The notes under the pieces were generated by a model, which was not told where the DNA came from, made no database searches, and saw nothing but the letters and a program-made list of their open reading frames with translations. Positions 33,329 to 50,810 of a DNA stretch of 54,316 nucleotides are shown here, piece after piece. Numbering within the stretch: the stretch's first letter is position 1; the number at the start of each line of letters is the position of its first letter. Origin of the DNA: an uncultured Eubacteriales bacterium (lineage in GTDB: Bacteria; Bacillota; Clostridia; Oscillospirales; Oscillospiraceae); contig OMVL01000010.1 of assembly GCA_900314485.1 (NCBI GenBank), forward strand, positions 1 through 54,316, given 5' to 3'. The translations under genes were made by a program, and so were the position numbers.

Positions 33329-34822
33329 TTACCATCCGCCCTGGCCGAAGAAAAAGCTGTATGGGTCGTTGCCGCCGAAGGGGCTGTAGTAGCCATAGGG
33401 GTTGTTGTAGCCGTGGCTGTATTCGTTGCCGTTCTGGCTGCTCTGCCCATCGTCGGCGGAACCGGCGGCGCTCTGGGGCACCTCCTCGTCCAGGGTGACG
33501 GTGATGGTGAGATAAGTGCCCTCCCGGAAGACGGTGAGGAGCATCTCGTCCCCGGCCCGCAGAGCATTTTTGGCGTCGATCAGTTCTTCATAGGTGGTAA
33601 TGTCCTGATTATTTACCTGAGTGATGATGTCGCCCACCTGAATACCGGCGGTCTCGGCGCAGGAGCCTTCCTCCACGCTCCGGACGTAGGCGCCCACCAC
33701 CATGTTGGAGTACTGCTGCGCAGTGATGCTGCTGACGGTGGCGACAGAAATGCCCAGATGGGGCTTTCCGGTGATATAGCCGTGGGCAATGAGGTCGTCC
33801 GAAATGGCCAGAGCGTCGTTGATGGGGATGGCAAAGCCGATGCCCTCCACCGTGGCGGCGGAGGAATAGCCGCTGCTGGAATACTTGGCGTTGACCACGC
33901 CGATGACCTCGCCGTACTCATTGAACAGCGGGCCGCCGGAGTTGCCGGAGTTGACGGTGCAGTCGGTCTGCAGCACGTTCATCACTTTGCCGTCGCTCAT
34001 GGTGAGCGCCCGGTCCAGCCCGGAGACAGTGCCGGAGGTAAGCGTGTTTGCAAAGGTCCCCAGGGCGTTGCCGATGGCGGTGACGGTGCTGCCCACGGTG
34101 AGCTGGCCGGAGTCGCCCAGCACCACCGGCTTGAAGCTGCTGCCGTCTGCGGACTCAATTTTGATGATTGCCAGATCTGCGTCCTCGTCGCCGCCCACAT
34201 AGGCGGCCTCATAGCTGGTGGAGTCGATGAAGGTGCAGGAGATGGCCTGATAGCCCTCCACCACATGGTAGCAGGTGAGGATATAACCGTCCTCAGAGAT
34301 CAGAAAGCCGGTGCCGGCCCCGATGCCGTTGGCGGTCTGCACCTCAATGCTCACCACCGAGTCGGAGTAAGCGTCGTAGATCTGGCTGGGGGTCATGGCG
34401 TTTCCGGCGGCCACCTGTGCGACAGACGCTCCGTCCGCCCGGTCACTGACCTGAAGGGTGGGCCGGTCCGTGCCGCCCTCGGTGCTGACGGCGGTACCGT
34501 CAGAAGCAGCGCTGCTGTTCAGAGCGCCGAACATGAGATAGGCGCCTCCTGCGCCTGCGGCACCGCCGATGAGCAGACAGGCAAGCACGGCTGCAATGAC
34601 CTTGGCTGCCCTGGGCGTTGCGGATTTTTTCTTCCGATTGGGCTGAGGGGGAGAGACGGGAGGCGCCTGATAGGGAGAACCATCCGCAGGCTGAAAGCCG
34701 TAGCTGTAGCGGTATTCGCCGCTCGCCGGCTGCGGATCGCAGGGACGATCCTCGGGAGGACGGTTGTCGTTTTCCGGGGTAAAGCCGCTGCCGTAATTTT
34801 TGTCGTACATATTATAGGACAT
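33329..34822 (-). CDS. HtrA/DegP-like membrane-anchored serine protease with PDZ domain
   Basis: A 497-residue envelope quality-control protease. A Pro/Tyr-rich cytoplasmic N terminus (1-65) precedes one transmembrane segment (about 73-100). The trypsin-like domain has His186 in TCYHVVEG, Asp216 in EDADLAIIKI and Ser295 in NSGNSGGPL, and a PDZ domain lies at about 360-455. The C-terminal tail is unusually rich in Gly, Tyr, Asn and Phe (NPYGYYSPFGG type). The start is ATG at 34822 with AAGGAG 8 bases upstream; a GTG three codons earlier overlaps the ribosome site. No CssRS-like regulator is adjacent. Confidence 0.95.
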   Translation of the reverse strand: MSYNMYDKNYGSGFTPENDNRPPEDRPCDPQPASGEYRYSYGFQPADGSPYQAPPVSPPQPNRKKKSATPRAAKVIAAVLACLLIGGAAGAGGAYLMFGALNSSAASDGTAVSTEGGTDRPTLQVSDRADGASVAQVAAGNAMTPSQIYDAYSDSVVSIEVQTANGIGAGTGFLISEDGYILTCYHVVEGYQAISCTFIDSTSYEAAYVGGDEDADLAIIKIESADGSSFKPVVLGDSGQLTVGSTVTAIGNALGTFANTLTSGTVSGLDRALTMSDGKVMNVLQTDCTVNSGNSGGPLFNEYGEVIGVVNAKYSSSGYSSAATVEGIGFAIPINDALAISDDLIAHGYITGKPHLGISVATVSSITAQQYSNMVVGAYVRSVEEGSCAETAGIQVGDIITQVNNQDITTYEELIDAKNALRAGDEMLLTVFREGTYLTITVTLDEEVPQSAAGSADDGQSSQNGNEYSHGYNNPYGYYSPFGGNDPYSFFFGQGGW

Positions 34823-34992
34823 ATGAGACACTCCTTTATGGGGCCGAAGACAGCCCGCTTGCTTTCTGAGTAAAAGGATAGTCTGTTATTGTGTCCAAAT
34901 TGTGAAGGATCATACGCAAAAATCTGAATATAAGCTGAAAATCTTTTAAGGTTAGCGGTTTTACGGGCAAAAGGTTGGGAAAGACGCAATAA

Positions 34993-44179: not shown

Positions 44180-44463
44180 CACCTAAACCGTTGAAGTGAG
44201 AGTAAAAACAGTGATGCTCCCCCAGAGAGCCTGCGGTGCTGCGATGCAGGCGGAATACACGCTGTTAAATGGGTCACTGAGGGCACGGTCAAAGGCGGCA
44301 TAGAGGTGCTGCCGAGTATTCCGTGACGTGAGGGCATACGTCAGTTGCCGGAGGTATGTTGGTACCTTGCAAAGGGGCGGCATTTCAGCCGCAATCAGGG
44401 TGGCACCGCGGATAAGCTTTTATTCGTCCCTGACAGAGTTCTTGCTCTGTCAGGGACTTTTTT
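44180..44463 (+). promoter_or_regulatory. T-box riboswitch, tryptophan specific, controlling trpEGDCFBA
   Basis: The leader has the conserved T-box AGGGTGGCACCGCG (44397-44410) followed by a terminator, plus a long stem I. The basal stem pairs CAGTGA (44209-44214) with TCACTG (44274-44279), and just inside its 3' arm is TGG (44270-44272), the expected Trp specifier codon. T-boxes bind the matching uncharged tRNA: here uncharged tRNA-Trp would favour the antiterminator and switch the operon on. The stretch of 360 bases between mazF and trpE is fully explained by this element and its promoter. Confidence 0.93.
44426..44463 (+). terminator. Regulated terminator of the trp T-box
   Basis: GTCCCTGACAGAG and CTCTGTCAGGGAC (13 bp, perfect) around TTCTTG, followed by six T residues. 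It overlaps the region that must refold with the T-box to form the antiterminator. Confidence 0.95.
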
Positions 44464-44481: not shown

Positions 44482-45954
44482 ATGCCTGTGCAGATCAAAC
44501 CGAGCTACGAGGAGGTACTTGCCTGCGCCAAGTCGGGCGAATACACCACCATTCCCATCAGTACCGAGCTTTTCAGTGACATTAAAACGCCGGTGGAGGT
44601 GCTGAAGACTTTGCTTCATGTCTCCGACCACTGCTACATGCTGGAGAGTGCCGGGGACAACGAGGCCTGGGGGCGCTACACCTTTCTGGGATACGATCCC
44701 AAGCTGGAGCTGACGTGTGAAAACGGCAAAGTCCGCTGCGGGGGCGTCACGGTGGAGACAAACCATCCGAACGAAGTGATCCGCCAGATTTTGAACGAAC
44801 ACAAGAGCCCCCGGCTCCCCGGACTGCCCAGCTTTACCGGCGGCTTGGTGGGCTACTTCTCCTATGACTATCTGAAATATGCCGAGCCGACCCTGCGGCT
44901 GGACGCCAAGGACACGGAGGGCTTTAAGGATGTAGACCTGATGCTCTTTGACAAGGTCATTGCCTTTGACCACTACCGGCAGAAGATCGTCCTGATGATC
45001 AATATCGACCTGACCCGGCCGGAAACGGAGTACAACCGGGGGTTGCTGGAGCTGGGGCATATGGTGGAGCTGATTAAAAACGGCCAGCCCCGGAAAAATC
45101 TTTCCGGAAAGCTGGGGGGAGAAGTAACGCCCCTGTTTCAGAAAGACGAGTACTGCGCCATGGTGGAGCGGGCCAAGCACCACATTGTGGAAGGCGACAT
45201 CTTTCAGATCGTCCTGTCCAACCGGCTGGAGGCCCCCTTTGAGGGGAGCCTGCTGAACACCTATCGCATCCTGCGGACGCTGAACCCCTCTCCCTATATG
45301 TTCTACTTCTCCGGCTCTGATATGGAGGTAGCCGGGGCGTCTCCCGAGACGCTGGTCAAGCTGGAAAACGGCGTCCTCCACACCTTTCCCCTGGCGGGCA
45401 CCCGGCCCAGAGGAAAGACGGCGGCAGAGGACGCTGAACTGGAGCAGGACCTTCTGGCTGACCCCAAGGAACTGGCCGAGCACAATATGCTGGTGGATCT
45501 GGGCCGCAACGACATCGGCAAGATCAGCAAATTCGGCACGGTGCAGGTGGAGAAGTACCACGAGATCCAGCGCTATTCCCACGTCATGCACATCGGCTCC
45601 ACCGTCCGGGGGGAGATTCGGGAGAGCGCTGACGCACTGGACGCCATTGACGCCATTCTCCCTGCCGGAACCCTGTCCGGCGCACCGAAGATCAAGGCCT
45701 GCCAGCTCATCAACGACCTGGAAAACAACAAGCGGGGCATCTACGGTGGGGCCATCGGCTACATTGACTTTACCGGCAATCTGGACACCTGCATTGCCAT
45801 CCGGATTGCCTACAAGAAAAACGGCAAGGTATTCGTCCGCAGCGGAGCGGGCATTGTGGCAGACTCGGTGCCGGAGCGAGAATACCAGGAGTGCCTGAAC
45901 AAGGCTGCTGCCGTCATTAAGGCGCTGAAAACCGCTGAGGAGGTGGAGGACTGA
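44482..45954 (+). CDS. trpE: Anthranilate synthase component I
   Basis: A 490-residue chorismate-binding enzyme, first step of the tryptophan branch. Seen: N-terminal Trp-binding region with ESAGDNEAWGRYTFLGYDP, the catalytic core HYHE-equivalent EKYHEIQRYSHVMHIGSTV, DALDAILPAGTLSGAPKI with the key Thr-Leu-Ser-Gly-Ala, and GAIGYIDFTGNLDTCIAIR. It needs TrpG for glutamine use. GGAGG is only 3 bases before the ATG at 44482 but 9 bases before a GTG at 44488, so the true start may be two codons later. Its stop overlaps the trpG start. Confidence 0.97.
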   Translation: MPVQIKPSYEEVLACAKSGEYTTIPISTELFSDIKTPVEVLKTLLHVSDHCYMLESAGDNEAWGRYTFLGYDPKLELTCENGKVRCGGVTVETNHPNEVIRQILNEHKSPRLPGLPSFTGGLVGYFSYDYLKYAEPTLRLDAKDTEGFKDVDLMLFDKVIAFDHYRQKIVLMINIDLTRPETEYNRGLLELGHMVELIKNGQPRKNLSGKLGGEVTPLFQKDEYCAMVERAKHHIVEGDIFQIVLSNRLEAPFEGSLLNTYRILRTLNPSPYMFYFSGSDMEVAGASPETLVKLENGVLHTFPLAGTRPRGKTAAEDAELEQDLLADPKELAEHNMLVDLGRNDIGKISKFGTVQVEKYHEIQRYSHVMHIGSTVRGEIRESADALDAIDAILPAGTLSGAPKIKACQLINDLENNKRGIYGGAIGYIDFTGNLDTCIAIRIAYKKNGKVFVRSGAGIVADSVPEREYQECLNKAAAVIKALKTAEEVED

Positions 45955-46544
45955 TGCTGCTGCTCATCGACAACTACGACAGCTTTTCCTACAACCTCTA
46001 CCAGCTCGTCGGCTCGGTGGAGCCGGACATCCGTGTCATCCGCAACGACGCCATGACGGTAGAGGAGATCGAGGCCCTGCACCCTGCGGGCATCATCCTC
46101 TCCCCCGGTCCCGGACATCCGGAGGAGGCCGGTGTGTGCATTGAAGTGGTGCAGAAGCTGGGGAGCAAAATTCCCATCCTGGGGGTCTGCCTGGGTCATC
46201 AGTCCATCTGCACCGCCTACGGGGCCACGGTCAGCTACGCAAAGCAGCTGATGCACGGCAAGCAGTCGGACGCCGGGCTGGATGGAAGCAGCCCCCTGTT
46301 CAAAGGCTGCAAAGCGACAGAACCGGTGGCCAGGTATCACTCTCTGGCCGCCATTGAGGACACGCTTCCCGACTGCCTTATTGTCACCGCCCGGGCGGAC
46401 GACGGGGAGATCATGGCGGTACAGCACAGGGAATATCCCGTCTACGGCGTCCAGTTCCATCCGGAATCCATTATGACGCCGGCGGGGAAGATCATGCTGC
46501 AAAATTTCTACCATATCACAAACGGAGGTCATTTAAATGATTAA
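45954..46544 (+). CDS. trpG: Anthranilate synthase component II (glutamine amidotransferase)
   Basis: A 196-residue class I amidotransferase that supplies ammonia to TrpE. Seen: [15 protein letters not shown] at the N terminus, the oxyanion loop SPGPGHP, the nucleophile Cys in ILGVCLGHQ, and the catalytic His in GVQFHPES. Coupled to trpE by the TGATG overlap. It ends eight bases inside trpD. Not fused to trpD, unlike in enterics. Confidence 0.97.
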
Positions 46545-47553
46545 GGAAGCCATTGTGAAAATCGTCAGCAAAGAGGACCTCGCCTACGACGAGGCATATC
46601 AGGTCATGAACGAGATCATGGGCGGCGAGACCACTCCCACCCAGAACGCCGCCTTTTTAGCCGCCCTGTCCACCAAGAGCGCCAAGGCGGAGACCATCGA
46701 CGAGATCTCCGGCTGCGCTGCCGCCATGCGGGAGCACGCCATTCCGGTAGAGACGGGTTTGGACACCTTCGAGATCGTGGGTACCGGCGGCGACGGAGCC
46801 CATTCCTTCAATATCTCCACCACCTCCCTTTTCGTGCTGGCAGCCGGCGGGGTGAAGGTGGCAAAGCACGGCAACCGGGCAGCCTCCAGCAGCAGCGGCA
46901 CCGCCGACTGTCTGGAAGCCCTGGGCATCAATATCCAGCAGGATCCGGAGACCTGCAAGCGGCTGCTGGAGGAGGTGGGCGCCTGCTTTATGTTCGCTCA
47001 GAAGTACCACAGCTCCATGAAGTATGTGGGCTCCATCCGCAGGGAGCTGGGCGTTCGCACTGTCTTCAACATTCTCGGCCCCATCACCAATCCTGCCCGT
47101 CCCGCCTATCAGCTGCTGGGCGTCTATGACGAGTATCTGGTGGAGCCCATGGCAAAGGTGCTGTCCAGTCTGGGTGTGAAGCGTGGCCTGGTGGTCTACG
47201 GTCAGGACAAGCTGGACGAGATCTCCGTCTCCGCTCCCACCACCGTCTGCGAATTTGACGGCGGGGAGTACCGCACATACACCATCACTCCCGAGGACTT
47301 TGGCCTTACCCGTGCGCAGAAGTCTGACATCGTGGGCGGCACTCCCGCCGAAAACGCTCAGATCACTCTGGACATTCTCAGCGGCGTGAAAGGCCCCAAG
47401 CGGGACATCGTCCTGCTCAATGCCGGCGCCGGTCTGTATATTGCGGAGAAGGCGGACTCTCTGGCAGCGGGCGTCAAGCTGGCTGCCGAGCTGATCGACT
47501 CCGGGGCTGCGCTGAAAAAGGTTGACGAGCTGCGCAGGGCCTCCAACGCATGA
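46537..47553 (+). CDS. trpD: Anthranilate phosphoribosyltransferase
   Basis: A 338-residue enzyme that joins anthranilate to PRPP. The PRPP-binding [14 protein letters not shown], the [21 protein letters not shown] loop, and the [18 protein letters not shown] segment are present. GGAGG lies upstream of the ATG, which overlaps trpG by eight bases; its stop overlaps the trpC start (ATGA). Confidence 0.97.
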
Positions 47554-48341
47554 GCACCATTTTGGACACCATTGCCGCCCATGCCCGTCAGCGGGTGGCG
47601 GCGGACAGGGCGGAGAACAGTCTGGATGCATTGAAAGAGCTGTGTCAGGAGGGCGGAATTGCCAACGGAAAAGCCTTCTACGACGCTGTCGAGAGAGAAG
47701 GGATGAGCTTTATCTGCGAGGTGAAGCGGGCATCCCCCTCCAAGGGACTGATCGCCAAGGACTTTCCCTATGTGGAGATTGGGAGAGACTACGAGCAGGC
47801 CGGGGCCGACTGCATCTCCTGTCTGACGGAGCCGAAGTGGTTCCTGGGGTCTGACCAAATCTTTCGGGAGATTCGGCAGAATGTCTCCATTCCCATGATC
47901 CGGAAGGATTTCGTGGTGGACGAATATCAGCTCTATCAGGCAAAGCTGATGGGGGCAAACTGCGTCCTGCTTATCTGCGCCATTTTGGACACTGAGACGA
48001 TTCGCCGCTATCTGGACATCTGCAATCAGTTGGGCCTTGCCGCACTGGTGGAGACCCACGACGAGGGGGAAATCTCCTCCGCCGTCGCCGCTGGGGCCAG
48101 GATGATCGGCGTCAACAACCGGAATTTGAAGGATTTTTCCGTGGACTTCTCCAATGCCGCCCGGCTCCGGGATCTGATTCCCGCCGGGACCCTCTATGTG
48201 GCGGAGTCTGGAGTCAAGTCCCCCGAGGATGTGGCTGCTCTGAAAAAAACCGGCGCAGACGCCGTGCTCATGGGCGAGGTGCTGATGCGGGCAAAGGACA
48301 AGGGCAGAATGCTTGCCCAAATGCGGGAGGCCGCCCAATGA
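47550..48341 (+). CDS. trpC: Indole-3-glycerol phosphate synthase
   Basis: A 263-residue TIM-barrel enzyme. Seen: [13 protein letters not shown] with the catalytic Lys, [21 protein letters not shown] with the second Lys, [22 protein letters not shown] and the phosphate-binding [10 protein letters not shown]. Coupled by overlaps to trpD and trpF. Separate from trpF, as is usual in Firmicutes. Confidence 0.97.
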
Positions 48342-48943
48342 CAGCAAAAATAAAGCTCTGCGGTTTGTCCCGTCCGGCAGATATTGATTATGTCAATCAA
48401 GTAAAGCCGGATTACTGCGGGTTTATCGTGAACTTCCCCAAGAGCCGCCGCAATGTGACCCCTGAGCAGGTACGGGCGTTGACTGCCCGGCTCTCCGGAG
48501 ACATTATCCCGGTGGGGGTCTTTGTGGACGAGTCGGTAGAGACCGTGGCCGGACTGCTGGAGGATGGGACGATTGCCGTCGCCCAGCTTCACGGGCATGA
48601 GGATGAAGCATACCTTGCCGCCCTGCGGAAGCTGACCGCAAAGCCCATCTGGCAGGCCTTTCAGATTCGCAGTGCAGCGGATTTGGAACGGGCAAAATCC
48701 AGCACCGCCAATCTGGTGCTGCTGGACTCCGGACAGGGCAGCGGCGTGACCCTGGACTGGCGGATTTTGGCAGACTTTCCCCGGCCCTTTGTGCTGGCGG
48801 GGGGACTGACGGCGGAGAACATTCCCGCCGCTGTACAACAGGTGAAGCCCTACGCCGTTGACCTCAGCTCCGGCGTGGAGACGGAGGGCTATAAGGATTA
48901 CGAAAAGATGCTGGCGGCGGTGGCCGCTGTGAAAAAGGAGTAA
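48338..48943 (+). CDS. trpF: Phosphoribosylanthranilate isomerase
   Basis: A 201-residue TIM-barrel isomerase. The catalytic Cys is in IKLCGLSRP, the acid/base Asp in LLDSG, and VAQLHGHED and [12 protein letters not shown] complete the pattern. The last residues [15 protein letters not shown] match the family. Its start overlaps the trpC stop. trpB begins six bases after its stop. Confidence 0.96.
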
Positions 48944-48948
48944 TAATT

Positions 48949-50047
48949 ATGTCAACTGGACGCTTTGGCATCCACGGCGGGCAGTATATTCCGGAGACGC
49001 TGATGAATGCGGTCATCGAGCTGGAGACTGCCTACAATCACTATAAAAATGACCCGGAATTCAATGCCGAGCTGGAAGAGCTGTTCAACAACTACGCTGG
49101 CCGCCCCAGCCGTCTGTATTACGCCGAGAAGATGACGAAGGATCTGGGCGGGGCGAAGATCTATCTGAAACGGGAGGACTTAAACCACACCGGGGCGCAC
49201 AAGATCAACAATGTGCTGGGTCAGGCGCTGCTGGCAAAGAAGATGGGCAAGACCCGTCTCATTGCCGAGACGGGTGCCGGTCAGCACGGCGTAGCCACCG
49301 CCACTGCCGCCGCCCTCATGGGGATGGAATGCGTCGTCTTTATGGGAGAGGAGGACACGAAGCGTCAGGCGCTGAACGTGTACAAAATGCGGCTGCTGGG
49401 CGCTGAGGTCATCCCCGTGAAAACCGGCACTGCTACGCTCAAGGACGCCGTCTCTCAGGCCATGCGGGAGTGGACCAGCCGCATTGCCGACACCCACTAC
49501 TGCCTCGGCTCCGTCATGGGGCCACATCCATTCCCCACCATCGTGCGGGACTTTCAGGCGGTCATCTCAAAGGAGATCAAGGCGCAGATTCTGGAGCGGG
49601 AAGGGCGGCTTCCTGATGTGGTCATGGCCTGTGTGGGCGGCGGCTCCAACGCCATCGGTACCTTCTACCACTTCATTGAGGAGAAAGACGTCCGGCTCAT
49701 CGGCTGCGAGGCGGCTGGCCGGGGCATTGACACCTTCGAGACGGCGGCGACCATAAATACCGGGCGACTGGGTATCTTCCACGGCATGAAGAGCTACTTC
49801 TGTCCACGACATCGGCCGGGCGGAATACGTCGCCATCACCGACGACGAGGCGGTGGACGCCTTTGAGTACCTCTCCCGGACGGAGGGCATCATTCCCGCC
49901 ATTGAGAGCGCTCACGCCCTGGCCTATGCCCAAAAGCTGGCGCCCACGCTGGACAGGGACAAGATCATCGTCGTCACTGTCTCCGGCAGGGGCGACAAAG
50001 ACTGTGCCGCCATTGCCCGGTACAGAGGGGAGGATCTCCATGAGTAA
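48949..50047 (+). pseudogene. trpB: Tryptophan synthase beta chain, disrupted by an internal deletion and frameshift
   Basis: The frame from 48949 encodes 285 normal TrpB residues, including the PLP Lys in [23 protein letters not shown] and the phosphate-binding GGGSNAIG, up to MKSYFC at 49803. It then runs into unrelated Arg-rich residues and stops at 49866. From 49805 a different frame resumes TrpB ([23 protein letters not shown] ... [10 protein letters not shown]) to 50047. Compared with Bacillus and E. coli TrpB, the 29 residues between these points (QDEYGQI...SAGLDYPGIGPEH type) are missing and one base remains, a net loss of about 86 bases. The missing part includes the strictly conserved SAGLDYP loop, so read-through would not restore function. 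Confidence 0.9.
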
Positions 50048-50810
50048 TATTGCAAAGGCATTTGAAAACGGCAAGGCGTTTATCCCCTTCATCACCTGCG
50101 GCGACCCGGACCTGGAGACAACAGCAAAAATCGTCCGGGCCATGGTGGCAAATGGGGCGGACTTGATCGAACTGGGCATCCCTTTCTCCGACCCCACCGC
50201 CGAAGGTCCTGTCATTCAGGAGGCCAGCCTTCGGGCGCTGAATGCCGGGACGACCACCGACAAGATCTTTGATCTGGTGCGGGACCTGAGAGAGGATGTC
50301 GCCGTCCCCATGGTGTTTATGACCTACGCCAATGTGGTATTCAGCTACGGGGCGGAGCGGTTTATTTCCGCCTGCGCCGAGGTGGGGGTCGACGGACTGA
50401 TTTTGCCCGACATTCCATACGAGGAGAAGGGGGAGTTTGACGAAATTTGTCAGCGGTACGGCATTGACCTCATCTCCCTGATCGCTCCCACGTCGGAGCA
50501 TCGCATTGCCATGATCGCAAAGGAGGCCAAGGGATTCCTCTATGTGGTCTCCTCTCTGGGCGTCACCGGCGTGCGCAGTGAGATTAAAACCGACATCGGG
50601 GCAATGATCCGCATTATTCGGGAGAGCACCGACCTCCCCTGCGCCGTGGGCTTTGGCATCTCCACCCCCGAGCAGGCGAAAAAGATGACGGAGGACGCTG
50701 ACGGGGCGATTGTGGGCAGCGCCATTGTGCGGCTCATTGCCCAATACGGCAGAGATGCCGTTCAGCCGGTGGGAGCGTATGTCAAGAGCATGAAGGATGC
50801 CATACGGTAA
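50040..50810 (+). CDS. trpA: Tryptophan synthase alpha chain
   Basis: A 256-residue TIM-barrel enzyme that releases indole from indole-3-glycerol phosphate. The catalytic Glu is in [16 protein letters not shown], the catalytic Asp in LPDIPYEE, and [13 protein letters not shown] and VGFGIST bind phosphate. GGGGAGG lies 6 bases before the ATG, which overlaps the trpB tail by eight bases. The gene is intact. Without a working TrpB partner it would have low activity and release free indole. Confidence 0.97.

Follow-up and report, generated by a model that had tools for sequence, protein, structure and literature searches.

Is the trpB gene of this trp operon truly broken, such that the organism carrying it can no longer make tryptophan, or does the break exist only in the assembled sequence? 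The operon lies in a window of 54,316 nucleotides, by which we mean the whole stretch of DNA analyzed, and consists of a T-box leader followed by trpE, G, D, C, F, B and A (coding part 44482–50810; Table 1). The leader matches the whole RF00230 model, but its score lies below the gathering score of 93 and a default scan therefore missed it; when the alignment was read by eye, UGG (tryptophan) was found at the specifier position. With the exception of trpB, each trp gene is open and covers nearly all of its family model, although trpE and trpF score below their NCBIfam cut-offs, and a preliminary description of this DNA had rightly listed both these genes and the T-box as intact. Relative to the closest relative found (G025), the trpE and trpF products are 91% and 80% identical, respectively.

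An 86-bp gap in trpB

Alignment of trpB to its counterpart in G025 revealed a single clean gap of 86 bp whose edges share TC (49803–49804), a 2-bp microhomology. DNA identity to G025 is 88% upstream and 91% downstream of the gap. The length of the gap is not a multiple of three and TrpB picks up again in another frame, such that residues 314–394 of the G025 protein match window positions 49802–50044. The TIGR00263 match is likewise split, with profile positions 1–282 in one frame and 307–384 in another, and there is no full-length single-frame match. The 5′ part scores 479.4 bits against a cut-off of 392.45, which marks the gene as trpB in origin, and its 285 residues are 96% identical to the G025 protein. 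The residues lost number 28 (286–313 of G025 TrpB) and include the GLDYPG loop, a feature shared by the three TrpB relatives of solved structure for which alignments were shown. They also include what we take, from the Salmonella numbering and the offset in the alignment, to be the counterpart of Salmonella TrpB Asp305.

The preliminary description had reported a TrpB frame that is normal for 285 residues and then changes, together with an in-gene deletion of about 86 bp, and had called for an alignment with a close relative that would define the deletion ends. The alignment bears out both points. The loss of the conserved loop also holds, with 28 rather than 29 residues missing, and the span given there for the feature, 49790–49866, comprises the junction plus the out-of-frame tail. 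As the frame is disrupted relative to intact orthologs while the remaining sequence is little changed, the gene has the appearance of a recent pseudogene. In the assembled sequence trpB is almost certainly dead, and a working beta chain from what is left of it is very unlikely.

Table 1. Positions of the trp operon, its T-box and related loci in the window, the rest of the assembly (G000) and other genomes.
Feature	Location	Strand	Basis or remark
T-box leader of trp operon	44182..44434	+	RF00230, 88.6 bits, E 4.6e-20, model positions 1-219 of 219
trpE, open	44482..45954	+	TIGR00564 2-454 of 455, 510.4 bits (cut-off 517.7)
trpG, open	45954..46544	+	TIGR00566 1-191 of 192, above cut-off
trpD, open	46537..47553	+	TIGR01245 3-328 of 330, above cut-off
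trpC, open	47550..48341	+	NF001377 2-257 of 259, above cut-off
trpF, open	48338..48943	+	NF002298 3-204 of 209, 152.6 bits (cut-off 215)
Broken trpB, 285 in-frame and 20 out-of-frame residues, then stop	48949..49866	+	ORF of 305 aa
Deletion junction, 86 bp missing, TC common to both edges	49802..49805	+	alignment to G025
trpB remainder, other frame, to original stop	49805..50047	+	TIGR00263 positions 307-384
trpA, open, overlaps original trpB stop	50040..50810	+	TIGR00262 8-255 of 256, above cut-off
HtrA-like protease gene, intact	33332-34831	-	
HtrA-like protease gene in G025	L139:1433-2902		59-bp out-of-frame gap
Second Trp T-box (L123)	G000 contig C31 17280-17524	-	UGG at specifier position (by eye)
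trpXYZ-type importer operon behind the C31 T-box	L135:6385-9259	-	three open genes
Polysaccharide deacetylase gene	L148:3904-4427 (G000 C66, about 25.9-26.4 kb)		gap of ~34 bp relative to G025
T-box and TrpB2 gene, G027	L170:915-2608		
T-box and TrpB2 gene, G004	L171:2720-4442		
T-box and TrpB2 gene, G026	L172:2122-3820		
T-box and TrpB2 gene, G030	L173:100-1803		
trpD fragment, G026	G026:C120:4541-4891		profile 3-118 of 330
trpD fragment, G029	G029:C167:3-341		profile 3-114 of 330

Putative tryptophan uptake and trp genes across the genus

A replacement by a second TrpB, such as TrpB2, had been proposed in the preliminary description and found no support. Two of the seven PF00291 matches in the assembly are the trpB pieces themselves, and on reading the ORFs we took the other five for a putative threonine dehydratase, a cysteine synthase, two threonine synthase-type proteins and a D-cysteine desulfhydrase-like protein. 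A 231-bp probe taken from the relative whose trpB is intact matched only the two trpB flanks in the assembly, with no separate copy of the missing stretch. Thus, neither profile searches nor the probe found a second trpB or TrpB2 in an assembly that is 97.68% complete, although a trpB copy in an assembly gap is still conceivable.

The assembly contains 15 T-boxes including the trp leader, and one of these, on contig C31, also has UGG at the specifier position. Alignments were shown for 10 of the 14 T-boxes other than the trp leader, and in two of these (L126 and L128) an AUGG leaves Met or Trp undecided by eye; further Trp T-boxes in the assembly are therefore possible. Three genes follow the C31 T-box, all of them open and each above its Pfam cut-off: one matches ABC substrate-binding proteins (PF04392), one permeases (PF02653) and one ATPases (PF00005). 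This is the arrangement expected of a TrpXYZ importer. The best NCBIfam name for the substrate-binding gene is TrpX (NF041285), at 172.3 bits and thus below the cut-off of 390. By analogy, the C31 operon is likely a tryptophan importer, its substrate being suggested by this arrangement. The same order, a UGG-specifier T-box followed by substrate-binding protein, permease and ATPase genes, is described under Trp T-box control in the tryptophan auxotroph Streptococcus suis (PMC9382623); unlike the situation reported in that source, where the synthesis genes are absent, they are present here except for the trpB lesion, and the TrpX score of 172 bits is below the cut-off. With an open trpXYZ-type importer operon placed behind a Trp T-box, a loss of tryptophan synthesis would be survivable.

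Within the genus, surveyed as 32 genomes in a comparison set with one genome per species, TrpB1 was found above cut-off in 25, the broken one included; among the 24 others, that of G015 is cut by contig ends. The remaining seven lack both TrpB1 and trpA above cut-off. Four of these (G002, G004, G026 and G030) are 93–98% complete and three (G009, G027 and G029) are 67–80% complete. These seven members indicate that the tryptophan pathway is dispensable in the genus, and PMC9026213 names tryptophan synthesis as the most variable amino acid phenotype in human gut bacteria. The trpD gene was above cut-off in 24 of the 32 genomes. Two genomes without trpA, G026 and G029, have trpD fragments only, which may be either remnants of a lost operon or products of contig ends.

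A TrpB2-type gene (TIGR01415, 563–596 bits, cut-off 518.85) was found in G004, G026, G027 and G030, all of which lack trpA and TrpB1 above cut-off. Directly 5′ of each lies a T-box (75–98 bits) whose specifier position reads UGG. In G027 the T-box is followed by TrpB2, then by trpX and a trpY-like frame, the last named for its resemblance to the C31 operon (L135). A T-box ahead of a 'trpB-like' gene is already reported from Dehalococcoides (PMC2494555), and T-box-controlled TrpB2 in the genus is an extension of this known kind.

Deletion or artifact

Selection on trpB was gauged from dN/dS relative to G025 in 24 gene pieces, eight of them trp, hand-chosen from 55 matches between the window and G025. 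The values were 0.036 for the upstream and 0.024 for the downstream part of trpB, 0.078–0.140 for the other six trp genes and 0.026–0.144 for 16 other window genes. As none of these pieces, those of trpB and the rest of the operon included, showed relaxed selection, the trpB deletion is either very recent or not real. A full single-frame trpB is present in 103 of 106 relative loci, the other three being two that are cut by contig ends (L031 and L107) and one without trpB (L033), and a lineage-wide trpB lesion is thereby ruled out. These loci are partly redundant: they were drawn from two collections whose further overlap was left in, L009 and L038 are the same place, and G028 contributes two (L032 and L034). 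The frame count was used instead of a motif-spacing check of 79 loci (61 with equal spacing, 13 without the motif and five without an ORF by the filter used), which was not relied on.

The strongest alternative to a real loss is that the break is an assembly error, or a deletion allele of a minority strain that the assembler picked, in which case the dominant strain would have a normal trpB and make tryptophan. We rate this reading somewhat below an even chance. The source genome is probably a MAG: the assembly is in 76 contigs and many of the relatives' records carry that label, among them the G025 contig C50, which holds L038 and is recorded as 'MAG: Ruminococcaceae bacterium isolate RUG12037'. 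The undiminished constraint on trpB also favors an error. In PMC11017572, assembly is reported to create many false pseudogenes in isolate genomes, and one frame-breaking change in an otherwise constrained gene is what our case shares with them; unlike those cases, the gap here is 86 bp, and MAGs fall outside what that study assessed. Against an error stands the absence of a collapse-prone repeat. No direct repeat spans the deletion ends in the intact relative, which speaks against a repeat-driven assembly collapse at trpB; near the site, that sequence has one direct repeat of 9 nt, which lies upstream of the junction, along with an imperfect inverted repeat of 11 nt located at the left edge and a 9-nt inverted pair separated by 90 nt.

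We also surveyed frame breaks by comparing 299,168 bases of the assembly, the window among them, with 331,309 bases of G025, in stretches picked via shared ABC_tran anchors and the window's own matches. Among 193 G025 ORFs with a match in the assembly, flags fell on five: trpB and a polysaccharide deacetylase gene, an HtrA-like gene whose break lies in G025, an ORF that runs antisense to the T-box, and an extension of the N-terminus in front of trpX. In the reverse direction, two of 198 ORFs were flagged, namely the HtrA-like gene and an ORF whose frame probably undergoes a small change close to the end. Only trpB and the polysaccharide deacetylase gene look genuinely broken in this assembly (2/193), and no frame-split was seen among its 48 ABC_tran matches. 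Gene breaks are rare, about one in a hundred, which speaks against assembly error. The polysaccharide deacetylase gene, with a gap of about 34 bp and its 3′ end lost or different, appears decayed, as would fit a genome that is shedding genes and thus a real loss of trpB. The HtrA-like protease gene is intact in the window, and its gap in G025, like that in trpB, has 2 bp shared at its edges; a gap of this kind in the sister assembly suggests a shared artifact. In both assemblies conserved stretches are broken in a similar manner, which may reflect either ordinary short deletion or a common artifact.

On balance, we lean slightly toward real loss over assembly error. The points counted for it are a clean junction free of N, the failure to find another trpB copy in the assembly, the open importer behind a UGG T-box and the 7 of 32 genomes without the pathway end; those counted against it are the lack of relaxed selection, the 103 of 106 intact loci and the out-of-frame gap in the G025 HtrA-like gene. 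A real, very young 86-bp deletion with 2-bp microhomology in the sampled strain, which would probably import tryptophan, is in our estimate a little better than an even bet. We regard it as highly improbable that tryptophan is still made by trpB pieces cooperating as a split enzyme or by a second trpB or TrpB2 in the unassembled part of the genome, since for all that both pieces look constrained, that a GTG-started 64-aa ORF spans part of the 3′ piece, that the assembly is 97.68% complete and that four genus members have TrpB2, the 28 conserved residues (with the presumed Asp305 counterpart) are missing between the pieces, no second trpB was found, and the TrpB2 carriers, unlike G000, are without trpA above cut-off.

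Possible consequences of a lost beta chain

If the deletion is real, the removal of the conserved TrpB loop and the shift in frame would leave the cell with no working tryptophan synthase beta chain, and it would be a tryptophan auxotroph dependent on uptake through the putative TrpXYZ-type importer. On starvation, the T-box would still activate the pathway even though it is a dead end, with indole-3-glycerol phosphate as its main stopping point. In the absence of TrpB, TrpA is a weak lyase, so of the two end points named in the preliminary description, indole-3-glycerol phosphate and indole, the first is retained and the second is softened. TrpA would probably also be translated less well, because the shifted trpB frame ends 173 bases ahead of the trpA start. 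The tryptophan pathway would then be on its way out, as in several members of the genus.

A broader scenario would place the genus at stages of a single switch, in which control by a Trp T-box persists but is redirected, starting with full synthesis in most species, passing via the importer and a synthase-dead operon in this genome and ending with indole salvage by T-box-controlled TrpB2 in four species. On starvation, a strain with trpA but a dead trpB would in that case release indole derived from indole-3-glycerol phosphate and feed its TrpB2-bearing kin. We consider this scenario highly improbable.

With regard to the very young deletion that we slightly favor, a partial parallel exists in the ocular strains of Chlamydia trachomatis, in which, as described in PMC8262981, synthase function has been lost by mutation while neighboring trp genes are kept; unlike here, where the lesion is in trpB and the operon is complete and under T-box control, the lesions described there lie in TrpA and the operon is short. 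Our literature search for a gut trpB pseudogene with tryptophan auxotrophy found no paper.

The event is ordinary under either reading. If it is an assembly error, it would be a caution on inferring auxotrophies from assembled genomes. If it is real, the organism would add to the tryptophan auxotrophs that pass as prototrophs when annotation goes by gene presence, because six of the seven trp genes and most of trpB are present. Regulated indole salvage could be studied more cleanly in the relatives that lack the trpAB pathway and have TrpB2 genes preceded by Trp T-boxes.
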